Source: Blautia coccoides
Lineage (GTDB): Bacteria; Bacillota; Clostridia; Lachnospirales; Lachnospiraceae
Reading direction: 5' to 3'
NCBI RefSeq assembly: GCF_034355335.1
Contig: NZ_CP136422.1
Span: forward strand, 4,436,501 to 4,500,500
DNA: 64,000 bases
The position numbers and the translations under genes are program-made. Under the pieces are notes generated by a model. It saw only the letters and a program-made list of their open reading frames with translations. It made no database searches and had not been told where the DNA came from. Shown one piece after another: positions 4,008-11,360 of this stretch (position 1 is the stretch's first letter; each line of letters begins with the position of its first letter).

Positions 4008-5444
4008 GGTTCTATAATGAATGTTGGGGTATGTGAATAACGTATTTTCAACATTCATTTTTTGTTATAAAATAAAAGAAGCCTCCCCAAAATGCCGGTC
4101 ATCCAAAACTAACATTTTAAAGGAGGTTTCAAAAATGCACTCTAATTGTACCAAAAATCTCTTAGATTTAGAAGGGGTTATAATAAAAAAAGTTGTGCAT
4201 GCGGATCATTATGTAAAGATTTTTATTCAAACAGATCCTTCCTTACAGACTTGTCCTGAGTGCGGCAACCAAACCAAACGCATTCATGATTATCGGTATC
4301 AAAAGATTAAGGATCTACCGTTCCAAATGAAACATACATATTTAATACTTAAGAAAAGGCGATATGTCTGTAAATGCGGTAAACGATTTATGGAGAAATA
4401 TCATTTTCTACCTTCCTATCAACGGCAGACTTTACGTTTATCCTACAAGATAATTGACCTACTTAGAAATCTTGTGAGTATAAAGTCCGTTGCAGATACA
4501 ACAAATGTTTCAGTTAACACCGTTACCCGACTTTTGGACACCATTAATTATTCTACACCCTCTCTTCCAGAGTGTATATCAATTGATGAATTTAAGGGTA
4601 ATACAGACGCCGGAAAGTACCAATGTATTCTTTTAGATGCCAAGAAACACCGTATTCTTGATATCCTACCGGACAGAACGCAGAGCCATTTGATTTCCTA
4701 TTTCAGAGAAACAAACCGAGCTGAGCGCCACCGTGTGAAGTTCTTTGTCTGTGATATGTGGCAGCCCTACGTAGACTTAGCAAGAGCTTACTTCCCTAAT
4801 GCCACAATCATTATAGACAAATATCATTTCATCCGGTATGTAACTTGGGCAATTGAAAATGTGAGGAAAAGGCTCCAGAAAACAATGCCTGTAAACCTCA
4901 GAAGATACTATAAACGCAGCCGAAAGTTAATTCTTACTCGATATGCTAAGCTTAAGGATGAAAACAAGAAAGCGTGCGATCTTATGCTACTTTATAACGA
5001 TGACTTGAGATTGGCTCATACTCTTAAGGAATGGTTTTATGAGATATGCCAGAGCGAGAAGTACTCCTATCAGCGAACAGCTTTCTGGGAGTGGGTTAAG
5101 TCTGCAGAGAAATCAGGAATACCCGAGTTTGAGAACTGTGCAAAAACTTATAGAAACTGGTCAGAAGGTATTTTAAATGCTTTTAAATACAAATATACAA
5201 ATGGTCCTACTGAAGGTTACAATAATAAAATCAAGGTGCTAAAAAGACTATCTTTCGGAATACGTAACTTTAATAGATTCCGTACAAGAATTATACACTG
5301 CTCTATCTAAAAAACGGACGACTGGCAAGAGGCTTATTTGGCATGCCCAAAAACATGAATTATAGACCCAAACATTAAAATGGCCCTAAATGTAGTAAAG
5401 GAGCGGGATTCAAAGAATCCCACCCCAACTATTGACATAGAGCC
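4008..5444 (+). mobile_element. ISL3-family insertion sequence, complete
   Basis: A 1,437-bp element. The left end GGTTCTAT...GTTGGGGT (4008-4030) and right end (5422-5444, reverse complement GGCTCTAT...GTTGGGGT) form imperfect inverted repeats, 15 of 23 positions identical. Both flanks carry the same 8 bp, AAAAAAAC (4000-4007 and 5445-5452), the duplication size expected for ISL3. A GGGATTC/GAATCCC subterminal hairpin lies at 5405-5421. The transposase frame is intact, so the copy may be active. Confidence 0.95.
4135..5310 (+). CDS. ISL3-family transposase
   Basis: A 391-residue transposase. An N-terminal zinc-finger-like region has CPECGNQTKRIHDY and later CKCGKRF; this is followed by an HTH segment (IKSVADTTNVSVNTVTRLL) and the DDE catalytic domain starting at SIDEFKG, with FVCDMWQPY and IIDKYHFIR, ending at NGPTEGYNNKIKVLKRLSFG and NRFRTRI. 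The frame opens at 4021, but AAAGGAGG seven nt before the ATG at 4135 marks the start. The whole gene is inside the inverted repeats and appears functional. Confidence 0.93.
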   Translation: MHSNCTKNLLDLEGVIIKKVVHADHYVKIFIQTDPSLQTCPECGNQTKRIHDYRYQKIKDLPFQMKHTYLILKKRRYVCKCGKRFMEKYHFLPSYQRQTLRLSYKIIDLLRNLVSIKSVADTTNVSVNTVTRLLDTINYSTPSLPECISIDEFKGNTDAGKYQCILLDAKKHRILDILPDRTQSHLISYFRETNRAERHRVKFFVCDMWQPYVDLARAYFPNATIIIDKYHFIRYVTWAIENVRKRLQKTMPVNLRRYYKRSRKLILTRYAKLKDENKKACDLMLLYNDDLRLAHTLKEWFYEICQSEKYSYQRTAFWEWVKSAEKSGIPEFENCAKTYRNWSEGILNAFKYKYTNGPTEGYNNKIKVLKRLSFGIRNFNRFRTRIIHCSI

Positions 5445-6656: not shown

Positions 6657-7856
6657 TTATCTTCTGTTCTTCAGGAAATCCGGAATCTGGATGTCCTTTT
6701 TCGGTACATTACTTGTGAATGTACCCTGCTGTGTACCTCCGAAGCCCTGCTGCGGCTGGAAGGACGGCATCTTAAATGCCGGCTGCTGCTGAGGCTGTCC
6801 GTATGACGGCGCCTGCTGCTGCGGCTGTACCGGTGTCTGCTGCTGTACCGGCTCTTCCTGTCTCGCTGCTTTCTTGTCTCTGCTCACGCTTGGTTTCCTT
6901 GCTGTCTCATCATCCAGTCCGGTAGCGATCACAGTGATCCTTACAAAATCAGCTTCTTTATCATCATACAGGGCACCAAAGATAATATTGGTATCTTCTC
7001 CGGTAAGATCCTGTACATAGCTGGCTGCATCGTTGGCATCCATAAGAGAGATATCTCCGGATACGTTGATGATAACATGGGAAGCACCCTCGATGGTTGT
7101 CTCGAGAAGCGGACTGGATACGGCCTGCTGTACAGCTTCCATAGCCTTGTCGTCGCCCTTGCCCTCACCGATACCGATATGAGCAATACCCTTGTCGATC
7201 ATGACAGTCTGAACATCCGCAAAGTCGAGGTTGATCAGTGCAGGCAGATTAATCAGGTCTGTAATGCCCTGTACAGCCTGCTGCAGAACCTCATCTGCTT
7301 TTCTGAGAGCTTCCGGCATGGTAGTCCGACGGTCTACGATCTCAAGCAGACGGTCATTTGGGATGACGATCAGTGTGTCTACATTCTCTTTTAATTTTTC
7401 AATACCTGTCAGCGCGTTTGTCATACGGGTCTTAGCTTCAAAACGGAAAGGTTTTGTGACAACGCCTACGGTCAGGATACCCATCTCTTTTGCCATGCCT
7501 GCCACGATCGGTGCGGCACCTGTTCCGGTTCCGCCGCCCATACCACAGGTGACAAATACCATATCTGCACCCTGCAGTACCTGCTTGATCTCCTCGATGC
7601 TCTCCTCAGCCGCTTTTTCACCGATCTCCGGCTTAGCGCCTGCACCAAGGCCTTTTGTCAGCTTCTCACCGATCTGTACTACAGTCGGTGCCTTGCACAA
7701 GGTCAGGGCCTGTTTATCTGTATTGACTCCGACGAATTCCACTCCGCCGATAGCTTCTTCCACCATTCTGTTGACTGCGTTATTACCAGCTCCACCTACA
7801 CCAATCACTATAATTTTTGCAGATGATTCAGCTTCGTTTGTCATTATCTCTAACAA
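6657..7856 (-). CDS. ftsZ: Cell division GTPase FtsZ
   Basis: A tubulin-like GTPase of 399 residues that forms the division ring. The N-terminal nucleotide site shows [13 protein letters not shown], the tubulin signature is [12 protein letters not shown], and the T7 loop is [12 protein letters not shown] Gln/Pro-rich linker (about 320-380) leads to the conserved C-terminal peptide [11 protein letters not shown] that binds membrane tethers. The start is TTG: AAAGGAGG lies 7 nt before TTG at 7856, while the first ATG is 12 nt farther, too distant. It is the last gene of the dcw cluster but is cut off from divIB by an IS1634-type element. No ftsA is adjacent. Confidence 0.97.
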
Positions 7857-8093: not shown

Positions 8094-8237
8094 GATATAT
8101 AATATAGTCTTTTGGAAAATTAATCAACTGGTAAATTTATTTTTTCACAAAAATTTTAAAAAAAACATCAAAATTTCCCGATTTGTGTCCCATAAAAAAC
8201 AAAATTCCTCTGTTATTCCGCCCCGGAACCATCATCT
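8094..8237. repeat. 144-bp direct repeat (left copy), target duplication of the IS1634-type element
   Basis: Identical base for base to 10237-10380. It contains a remnant of the last 25 nt of divIB (8213-8237) and a promoter facing ftsZ. IS1634-family elements are known for unusually long, variable duplications, so this is best read as the target-site duplication. Confidence 0.93.
8099..8127 (-). promoter_or_regulatory. Probable ftsZ promoter
   Basis: On the minus strand TTGATT (8122-8127), a 17-nt spacer and TATTAT (8099-8104). The transcript would begin near 8092 and have a leader of about 235 nt before the TTG start of ftsZ. It lies wholly inside the duplicated 144 bp, so a second copy is at 10242-10270. 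The rest of 7857-8093 shows no gene. Confidence 0.65.
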
Positions 8238-8273
8238 CGGAAGTTTGACAGCTGAACAAAAGAAAAACACCTG

Positions 8274-8300
8274 CAGGCCGCATAAAGCCTGTATTTTTTT
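8274..8300 (+). terminator. Inward terminator at the left end of the IS
   Basis: CAGGC (8274-8278), an 8-nt loop and GCCTG (8287-8291), followed by TATTTTTTTT. It would stop plus-strand transcription entering the element. Confidence 0.6.
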
Positions 8301-8373
8301 TGTCAAATTTTATCCATTTAGTTGTAGCTATTTATGGCTATATATGATATAATAAGGGCAGGAGGTGAGCAAC

Positions 8374-10149
8374 ATGAAACTTACAGTCAGCAAATCGAAA
8401 AATTCTGCATCCTTTTATGTCCAAAAAACGATTCGGAAACCCAACGGCAGCGTGACTACGATAACCGTGGAAAAACTCGGAAACCTAACAGAAGTTACCG
8501 CTAAGGCTGGCGGAAAAGATCCCTACGTGTGGGCACAGGAGTACGTCAACGAATTGAACCGCAGGGAGTATGATGAAAACAAAGAGATCATTGTCAGCTA
8601 TTCCCCTTCCAGGCTTCTCAAAAAGGGGGAGCAAAAACTTTTCAACTGCGGCTACCTCTTTCTACAGAGCATTTACTATAGTCTGGGACTGGATAAGATC
8701 TGCAGGGATATCTCATCCCGTCATTCTTTTGAATATGACCTGAATGATGTCCTCTCAAAACTTATTTATACCAGAATACTTTTCCCCTCTTCAAAGCTCT
8801 CTTCCAATAAACAGGCTGCCAAATTCGTAGAACAGCCAACCTTTGAACTTCATGATATCTACCGCGCGCTTTCTGTCCTTTCAGAAGAGAACGATTTTAT
8901 ACAGGCACAGCTTTACAAAAACAGCCAAAAAGCCATAGAACGCAGAAAGGATATCCTTTACTATGACTGCACGAATTACTTCTTTGAACTGGAAGAGGCC
9001 GATGACCTACGCCGGTACGGAAAAAGTAAACAACACCAGCCTCTTCCTATCGTGGGCATGGGGTTATTTATGGATTATGACGGGATTCCACTGGCCTTCG
9101 ATATTTATCCCGGAAACCAGAATGAGCAGCCCACCCTGAAGCCCTTGGAGAAGAAGGTGCTCCAGGATTATGGCCTTGGACAGGTTGTTGTCTGCACGGA
9201 TGCCGGGCTTTCTTCAAAAACAAACAGGAAGTTCAATGACAGGACACTTGGCGGGGTACAGATCCGCAGCTTTATTACCACACAGTCCGTCAAACAGCTT
9301 CCCGGATACCTCAAAGATTTCGCACTTGATCCGGCCGGATGGCATCTTGCAGGTTCTGACAAGTCTTTCAGTCTTGATGAGATTGATGAAACCAGAGATT
9401 ACAATAAGATTTTTTACAAAGACCGCTGGATCAAAGAAGACCTTTCCCAAAGGAAAATCAAAAGCGGTACAAAACCTTTAGAACAGCACCTGATCATTTC
9501 ATTTTCATTGAAATATAAAAACTACCAGAGGAAAATCAGGAACGGGCAGGTGGAACGGGCCCTGCAGCTTATTGACAGCGGGAACTACAAGCAACGGCCC
9601 AAAAACCAGAATGATCCCCACCGGTTTATATCCAGAGATAAAGCAACGAAAGACGGGGAAATCTGCTCCGAAGAGAGGGTTTACCTGAATACAGATGCCA
9701 TTCAGGAAGAGGAACGCTATGATGGTTTCTATGCCGTATGTACGAACCTTAACGACATGGGAGTAGATGAGATTGTAAGAATCAATAAGAAACGCTGGGA
9801 GATTGAGGAATGTTTCCGGATTATGAAGACCGGCTTCAGGGCCCGTCCTGTATATCTTCAGACAGAAGACCACATCCGTGCCCATTTCATCACATGCTTT
9901 ATCGCCCTTGTAGTATACCGGACACTTGAAAAGAAGCTGGATGAAAAATATACCTGCGAGGAAATCCTGAGCACACTGAAAAGTATGGTTATGGCCCGTC
10001 CCGGCGAAAAGATGGGTTACACTCCTGTATATACAAGAACAGATCTCACGGATGCCCTGCATGAATCAGCAGGTTTCCGTACGGATTATCAGATCATAAC
10101 CGATGTAAATATGCGTAAAGTAATACGTACATCCAAGAAGAAAAAGTAA
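8374..10149 (+). CDS. IS1634-family (IS4-like DDE) transposase
   Basis: A 591-residue transposase. The catalytic core shows the first Asp in LYYDCTNYFFE, the second in VVCTDAGLSSKTN, and the Glu region in KKRWEIEECFRIMKTGF, in IS4-group order. A long N-terminal region (about 1-190) precedes the core. The frame can begin at a GTG at 8365, but AGGAGG lies 7-8 nt before the ATG at 8374. A TATAAT -10 is at 8348-8353. The gene is uninterrupted, so the element could still move. Confidence 0.92.
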   Translation: MKLTVSKSKNSASFYVQKTIRKPNGSVTTITVEKLGNLTEVTAKAGGKDPYVWAQEYVNELNRREYDENKEIIVSYSPSRLLKKGEQKLFNCGYLFLQSIYYSLGLDKICRDISSRHSFEYDLNDVLSKLIYTRILFPSSKLSSNKQAAKFVEQPTFELHDIYRALSVLSEENDFIQAQLYKNSQKAIERRKDILYYDCTNYFFELEEADDLRRYGKSKQHQPLPIVGMGLFMDYDGIPLAFDIYPGNQNEQPTLKPLEKKVLQDYGLGQVVVCTDAGLSSKTNRKFNDRTLGGVQIRSFITTQSVKQLPGYLKDFALDPAGWHLAGSDKSFSLDEIDETRDYNKIFYKDRWIKEDLSQRKIKSGTKPLEQHLIISFSLKYKNYQRKIRNGQVERALQLIDSGNYKQRPKNQNDPHRFISRDKATKDGEICSEERVYLNTDAIQEEERYDGFYAVCTNLNDMGVDEIVRINKKRWEIEECFRIMKTGFRARPVYLQTEDHIRAHFITCFIALVVYRTLEKKLDEKYTCEEILSTLKSMVMARPGEKMGYTPVYTRTDLTDALHESAGFRTDYQIITDVNMRKVIRTSKKKK

Positions 10150-10176
10150 TAATATATAGCTACATTTTTAACTACT

Positions 10177-10220
10177 AAAAAATCCGTAGGAAGCCTTGTT
10201 TAAGGCATTCTACGGATTTT
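10177..10220. terminator. Bidirectional terminator after the IS1634-type transposase
   Basis: AATCCGTAG and CTACGGATT with an inner GCCTT/AAGGC stem form a long hairpin with A-run and T-run on opposite sides. On the minus strand it should stop dcw transcription leaving divIB before ftsZ. Confidence 0.8.
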
Positions 10221-10236
10221 AGCTGTCAAAGATGGG

Positions 10237-10380
10237 GATATATAATATAGTCTTTTGGAAAATTAATCAACTGGTAAATTTATTTTTTCACAAAAATTTT
10301 AAAAAAAACATCAAAATTTCCCGATTTGTGTCCCATAAAAAACAAAATTCCTCTGTTATTCCGCCCCGGAACCATCATCT
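10237..10380. repeat. 144-bp direct repeat (right copy)
   Basis: Identical to 8094-8237. This copy holds the true 3' end of divIB (10356-10380) and an orphan copy of the ftsZ promoter (-35 at 10265-10270, -10 at 10242-10247) that now points into the IS, antisense to the transposase. Confidence 0.93.
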
Positions 10381-11360
10381 GAGCCGTCATAGGAACCATC
10401 GCTTTCATATCCGGAACCATCCTCATCACCGGAGCCGTCTTCATATTCAGAAGTCTCATCGTATCCACTGCCCTCTTCGTAGCCGGTCTCCTCTTCGCTG
10501 TAATCTGCTCCCTCGTCTCCGGAGTCATCGTAGCCGGAACTGTCGTCATTTGCGGAGCCGTCACCATCCTCATCCTCATCAGACGAATCCTGGTCATCCG
10601 TGCCGCCGTTTTTATTCTTCTTCAGCGCTTCCTGCTCTGCCTCACTCAGCACCTTGTCAAAAACTACATTTTTTGAAGTCTCATCCACATTTTCCAGATG
10701 AAGGACACCTTCCATGCCGCCAAGCTGGGGAATAATGCCTAAAAGCCTGCTCATCTTCTCATCCATATTCTTGTCAGAGCCCATGCGCGCTTCCACTTTT
10801 CCGTAATAGAGCACAAGCTGCCCCTTCTCATCCAGCACCAGCCTGTCCGGTTTCTCATCGCCTTTTTCCAACATCTTGGTAACGCTTAAGATGAGGCTCA
10901 GACTGCTCTTATCAAGTCCGGGGATCTTCTCTCCCACCCCCACCTTATCAAGCTTCAGCCCCTCCACATTGGGTATATTCTCCAACTCTTCTGTGGTGCT
11001 CACCTGCACAATACCATTTCTGTCAAAGTATAAGTTGCCGTCCAAAAATTTTACATAGCCTATCAGCTCTTTCTCCCTGACATGGATCACCAGGCTGTGA
11101 CGGCTTGTCCTCTCCAGCCAGACTTTATTGATAAATTCCGCATCTTTTGTTCTTTTATCAGGATCGAGAAACCTCACCAGCACTGAATTGCCCGAAAGAG
11201 GGCCTGACAGCACCATTTTTTTGATTTCATCTTCCGTATAGTTCTTATTTCCTTCTACTTTAACACTGGTAATCTGAAAGCAGGCAAAGAATACCGCAAT
11301 GGCTGTTAATATGGCCGCTGCCAGGCAGCCCCAGAATATCCTGTGTTTTTTCCTGTCCAT
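10356..11360 (-). CDS. divIB: Cell division protein DivIB/FtsQ with long acidic tail
   Basis: A bitopic division protein of 334 residues. It has a short cytosolic start, one membrane helix (about 9-28), a POTRA domain beginning ITSVKVEGNKNYTEDEIKKMV, and an FtsQ/DivIB beta domain to about residue 245. The last 84 or so residues are only acidic, Ser, Gly, Tyr and a few others, with no Lys or Arg, so an extracytoplasmic polyanionic tail is expected. FtsL, DivIB and the septal PBP form the known division subcomplex; all three are encoded here. The IS inserted with its duplication spanning the stop codon, so the coding end is kept intact. Confidence 0.88.
   Translation of the reverse strand: MDRKKHRIFWGCLAAAILTAIAVFFACFQITSVKVEGNKNYTEDEIKKMVLSGPLSGNSVLVRFLDPDKRTKDAEFINKVWLERTSRHSLVIHVREKELIGYVKFLDGNLYFDRNGIVQVSTTEELENIPNVEGLKLDKVGVGEKIPGLDKSSLSLILSVTKMLEKGDEKPDRLVLDEKGQLVLYYGKVEARMGSDKNMDEKMSRLLGIIPQLGGMEGVLHLENVDETSKNVVFDKVLSEAEQEALKKNKNGGTDDQDSSDEDEDGDGSANDDSSGYDDSGDEGADYSEEETGYEEGSGYDETSEYEDGSGDEDGSGYESDGSYDGSDDGSGAE

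Follow-up and report, generated by a model that had tools for sequence, protein, structure and literature searches.

Promoter-proximal insertions of an IS1634-family clade: evidence for landing on sigma-A-type promoters and for sparing of the downstream gene by a long target duplication

In the genome of Blautia coccoides, an insertion sequence (IS) lies between divIB and ftsZ, and the same 144 bp stand on either side of it. How could an element enter this interval without breaking divIB or parting ftsZ from its predicted promoter, and where does so long a repeat come from? Here, we analyse the locus within a 64,000-nt stretch of contig NZ_CP136422.1 (hereafter the window) and compare it with insertions of related elements gathered from the same genus, family and class and from named genomes, plasmids and phages. 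A first-pass annotation of the window had recognized the element and its promoter-bearing repeat; it had missed that the ftsZ insertion, on the sequence comparisons reported here, appears to be no lucky accident and to reflect a tendency of a whole clade.

The assignment to the IS1634 family made in that annotation is borne out by the transposase, which scores 343 bits on the NCBIfam model NF033559 (cut-off 100). Its residues D201, D279 and E481, candidates for the DDE catalytic residues, are invariant in 16 aligned sequences. The length of 1,999 bp and the ends CGGAAGTT and CCCATCTT agree with the size (1500–2000 bp) and the terminal motif C-----YT given for the family in PMC2266710. The ends form imperfect 16-bp inverted repeats (CGGAAGTTTGACAGCT and CCCATCTTTGACAGCT). 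Most members of the family have target repeats of 5–6 bp, and those of the B. coccoides element measure 144 and 65–66 bp. With two lengths in one genome, a single-copy empty site and a range of 30–354 bp over 81 insertions, it conforms to the long-repeat type of IS1634 (from Mycoplasma mycoides) and IS1549 (from Mycobacterium smegmatis), for which variable direct repeats of 8–514 bp were already known (PMC2266710), as the annotation had stated for IS1634. About 3 kb away is an unrelated second IS, represented by an ISL3-family transposase gene (window positions 4021–5310) with DDE, zinc-ribbon and HTH domains.

The 144-bp duplication is perfect, as annotated, and each copy carries the hexamer pair TTGATT-17-TATTAT in the orientation of ftsZ, a promoter by consensus match. 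The copy to the left is still joined to ftsZ, which retains a predicted promoter; the divIB frame is whole because the repeat includes its last codons and stop. The name divIB is that of the first-pass annotation, and no family model scored above its cut-off on this gene. The C-terminal end of its product (window positions 10383–10600) is a low-complexity Asp/Glu/Ser/Gly tract with direct repeats, varying in length and sequence among congeners.

Table. Features in and around the insertion between the divIB-like gene and ftsZ (positions in the 64,000-nt window)
Feature	Position	Strand	Basis
IS1634-family insertion sequence, 1,999 bp	8238..10236	+	
Left copy of the 144-bp target duplication; carries the promoter still joined to ftsZ	8094..8237	.	
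Right copy of the 144-bp target duplication; carries the divIB end and a promoter copy that faces the IS	10237..10380	.	
Left terminal inverted repeat, CGGAAGTTTGACAGCT	8238..8253	+	
Right terminal inverted repeat; in relatives, the right end is the end that lands on -10 boxes	10221..10236	-	
Transposase ORF, 594 aa from GTG; alternative start ATG at 8374	8365..10149	+	
Predicted promoter TTGATT-17-TATTAT towards ftsZ, left copy; identical in two congeners	8099..8127	-	consensus match
Predicted promoter TTGATT-17-TATTAT, right copy, towards the IS right end; 5 bp from the IS	10242..10270	-	consensus match
Terminator-like hairpin inside the right end, inward-facing, with a T run after it; its inverted repeat faces the transposase side as well	10181..10218	-	
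Terminator-like hairpin inside the left end, inward-facing, followed by eight T	8272..8293	+	
ftsZ, downstream of the left promoter copy	6657..7856	-	
divIB-like gene; last codons inside the right repeat copy	10356..11360	-	

That the repeat is duplicated target DNA follows from two comparisons which the first-pass annotation had named as checks. Two congeners carry a single, uninterrupted copy of the window target site (loci L039 and L040 in genomes G005 and G009). The only other near-identical copy of the IS in the 6.1-Mb B. coccoides genome (L004) lies between copies of another perfect repeat, 65–66 bp long, so the repeat is target DNA and no part of the IS. No third match to the 144-bp repeat was found in this genome (E ≤ 0.001), and no long repeat was found around a third element (L037), 49 per cent identical to the IS. 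That a 144-bp repeat existed beforehand or arose by recombination, the IS being incidental, is hardly credible: nothing was found in its favour, and it is contradicted by the single copy in both congeners, by the different repeat of the second IS copy and by repeat edges that match the IS ends exactly. A clean empty-site comparison is confined to the window site, the relative tried for L004 being too diverged and repetitive. Across all three species the block around TTGATT-17-TATTAT is identical and its surroundings differ, the pattern that would be expected of a working ftsZ promoter.

The first collection comprised 165 transposase matches, which fell to 145 once repeated instances of one target had been taken out; a long repeat was present in 61 of the 145, and 7 of the 61, with unclear ends or N runs, were dropped, leaving a first set of 54 distinct insertions with repeats of 36–354 bp, the two of the window genome included. 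A later collection supplied 61 rows with a repeat, from which a second set of 27 was tested, including one insertion from a Carnobacterium plasmid and one from a Streptococcus phage; the 34 skipped rows were 27 from other clades or below 45 per cent identity and 7 whose longest repeat did not start at a right end. Of the skipped rows, the distant L257 had a repeat of 27 bp, and among the 7, a second match within L262 showed one of 18 bp. Twelve of the 43 plasmid and phage matches listed were examined, and 6 of the 12 had a repeat of at least 24 bp; L211 had one of 14 bp. The landing register was set from the first set once its rows had been seen, and the rules for including and skipping rows were written after the second-set rows had been seen, so the second set serves as an additional sample rather than as a blind test.

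In the 54 insertions, the target, taken outwards from where the IS ends on the right, tends to begin with ATTATA, the reverse of the -10 consensus TATAAT. Its first six bases match a -10 box at five or more positions in 31 of the 54 (background 1.35 per cent) and at four or more in 43; the most constant are junction positions 1 and 5, presumably the T at -7 and the A at -11 in promoter numbering. A TG precedes the -10 box in 18 of the 54 (3.4 expected), and 27 have a -35 match of at least 4/6 at a spacing of 16–18, where -10-matched positions of their flanks would give 7.9. The second set behaves likewise, with a -10 match of at least 5/6 in 22 of 27 (background 1.6 per cent), a -35 match in 19 (4.0 expected) and a preceding TG in 7 (2.5 expected). 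The L004 insertion abuts a perfect reversed TATAAT with TG before it and a -35 match of only 3/6.

The sets were pooled into 73 insertions (54 less the 8 of one group, q27, plus 27). The best -10 match adjoins the right end in 47 of these 73. Where the -10 match is at least 4/6, -35 matches of at least 4/6 peak at a spacer of exactly 17 bp (47 per cent), with 9 per cent at 16, 11 per cent at 18 and 0–11 per cent over the rest of the range 10–26. Among the 53 junctions with a -10 match of at least 5/6, 34 have a -35 box, compared with 16.9 per cent of 1,693 -10-like hexamers in intergenic parts of these flanks (Fisher test, 8e-14, our p-values treating positions as independent). These controls of register and spacing disfavour a chance preference for AT-rich DNA. 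The remaining 20 of the 73 sites match the -10 box at 4/6 or fewer, and 12 of the 53 good junctions fall inside a predicted ORF. At 40 other right ends around which no long repeat was detected, the -10 match is at least 5/6 in 26 and at most 4/6 in 14; inspection by eye revealed no short repeats at these ends, and deletion, recombination, decay or assembly breaks might each account for the missing repeat.

All 81 repeats of the two sets are at least 30 bp long. Since a -35 box, a 17-bp spacer and a -10 box together span 29 bp, every duplication is long enough for a whole promoter; repeats of 18–29 bp, which the method could detect, did not occur among the 81, and the lengths showed no helical periodicity at periods of 10–11. 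At the left end, the last repeat base is C in 37 of 54 first-set and 18 of 27 second-set insertions. Within 400 nt of the junction, an ORF with a ribosome site starts on the promoter side in 46 of 50 first-set and 17 of 27 second-set insertions, and on the opposite side in 14 of 50 and 6 of 27. First-set junctions fall within an open frame of at least 120 codons in 14 of 54 cases, compared with 82 per cent of random positions. The downstream genes include ftsZ in the window, rplS, encoding ribosomal protein L19 (L064), and rsmH (L083), and the hexamer at the junction matches the -10 box at 4/6 in all three. As a separate observation, two Lachnoanaerobaculum genomes (L162 and L176) have the same promoter-like target duplicated by two IS1634-family types; the targets are 92.5 per cent identical over 427 bp, the duplications measure 283 and 180 bp, and the target looks, by eye, like the 5' region of another mobile element.

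The window insertion itself fits the promoter rule loosely: its right end lies 5 bp past the best -10 box, and the hexamer that it abuts, TATATC, matches at 4/6 and has no -35 box. The rule also has limits. Among groups named by their best-matching query protein, a -10 match of at least 5/6 occurs in 29 of 44 insertions of q1, 16 of 17 of q50 and 8 of 12 of q40, and in a quick FastTree tree a branch with a support of 100 sets these groups apart, together with one 39 per cent-identical row. In the q27 group, none of 8 insertions reaches 4/6 in the fixed register; with offsets of -1 to +1, 3 of 8 reach 5/6, and a -35 box is present in 2 of 8. Eleven distant rows of less than 40 per cent identity give 5 matches of at least 5/6 with three offsets and one -35 box. 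Among 12 insertions of the mycoplasma-type group, 3 reach 5/6 when three offsets are allowed and 1 has a -35 box, and -10 targeting was seen in none of 6 Rhodococcus elements. Targeting throughout the family is unsupported in these last two groups, whose repeats span 24–582 bp; long repeats are accordingly more widespread than promoter targeting. The Rhodococcus elements, carried on plasmids (L213, L214, L219 and L224–L226), have repeats of 24–225 bp and no -10 box at the junction. A distant IS1634-family copy (L308 in genome G684) has a repeat of 582 bp, longer than the range quoted in PMC2266710 for IS1634 and IS1549.

From the register of the junctions, the spacing of 17 bp, the direction of the genes, the variable length of the duplication and one empty site in two species, we consider it likely that a clade of the IS1634 family inserts into sigma-A-type promoters and that the duplication leaves the gene a full promoter copy. 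The right end would be attached directly downstream of the -10 box, with the promoter facing into that end, and the left end some 30–350 bp upstream, often beside a C; the two ends may attack separately. Repair of the long stagger would then copy the whole stretch, -10 and -35 boxes included, leaving a complete promoter, which we expect to work, on the gene past the left copy and an intact 3' end on the upstream neighbour. We give about even chances to a narrower form of this proposal, in which the target is a promoter opened by RNA polymerase, the right end being joined near -7 in DNA melted by sigma and the polymerase and the left end at a variable distance past the -35 box, and in which each insertion rebuilds a full promoter, making promoters of essential genes open to colonization.

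A serious rival is that the transposase itself reads promoter-like DNA (TATAAT and upstream bases) with no role for RNA polymerase, the promoter being regenerated all the same. The sharp base-level register is typical of sequence-reading transposases, and some sites combine a good -10 box with no -35 match. Against these points, the -35 peak at exactly 17 bp and the TG before the -10 box would require a small enzyme to mimic the whole specificity of sigma-A; we hold direct reading to be a real possibility, if somewhat short of probable. Far less persuasive is the proposal that these are ordinary long-repeat insertions with an AT-rich preference, from which selection has purged gene-breaking events and left survivors between genes near promoters. 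The Rhodococcus and mycoplasma-type elements, with long repeats and no clear targeting, would suit it, as would the position of most good junctions outside predicted ORFs; selection alone, however, gives no base-exact register, nor the excess of -35 boxes at junctions over intergenic -10-like hexamers. It is already disfavoured, and we regard it as improbable.

The first-pass annotation had proposed that the second promoter copy drives antisense RNA into the transposase; a further alternative is that this RNA is functional and regulates the transposase. In its favour, the right copy is indeed oriented towards the interior of the IS, as is general in the clade. Facing inward, 18–56 nt inside that end, is a hairpin with a 17-nt stem, two mismatches and a following T run (minus-strand segment, z = -7.3; left-end hairpin, z = -2.25), and a transcript from the right promoter copy should presumably end there, short of the transposase. 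Of the 78 of 81 elements scanned (those of 1,900–2,120 bp), 44 have an inward terminator-like hairpin at the right end (18 per cent in shuffles) and 59 have one at the left end (15 per cent in shuffles); the 34 elements in which the scan found no right-end hairpin leave some room for antisense transcription. In the window, the right copy probably gives a short RNA and not one antisense across the transposase, and a regulatory antisense role is unlikely. Under the promoter-insertion mechanism, such hairpins might protect the transposase from the promoter that now faces it; the right-end hairpin of the window element also makes plausible the further suggestion of the annotation that an IS terminator would block read-through.

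That such elements belong to the IS1634 family and make long repeats was known before. Searches of open-access listings and abstract openings turned up no report that IS1634-family members target promoters and renew them in doing so; priority is uncertain. A fixed promoter-side landing of one end would turn unexplained long duplications into a testable two-step reaction. If true, the proposal describes bacterial integration guided by transcription initiation, with a duplication that spares the host gene. The right ends would then flag the sites of sigma-A promoters in gut and oral bacteria that have received little study, and the elements might be of use as tools for promoter mapping.

Among known systems, the yeast element Ty3 inserts at RNA polymerase III start sites. 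The likeness lies in integration tied to the place of transcription start, with genes spared; however, Ty3 is a retroelement that depends on eukaryotic factors and makes a short duplication, whereas the present elements are bacterial, of the DDE type, and duplicate a promoter's length. Neisserial CREE elements also have -10-like sequence at their flanks, where repeats of 2–5 bp resemble part of the hexamer, but these are discussed as helping to form fusion promoters and not as copying whole ones (PMC9330008, in the passages on these repeats). Within the IS1634 family, ISPfe2 and ISGka5 resemble the window element in transposase family and in the size range and end motif given for that family, and differ in repeats reported as 6 bp (PMC3281130, PMC8024623), compared with 30–354 bp in the insertions analysed here. 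IS1634 and IS1549 have the transposase family in common with the window element, as well as long repeats of variable length, for which a mechanistic model was then lacking; promoter targeting, absent from the account of them in the relevant section of PMC2266710, is seen in the clade of the window element.
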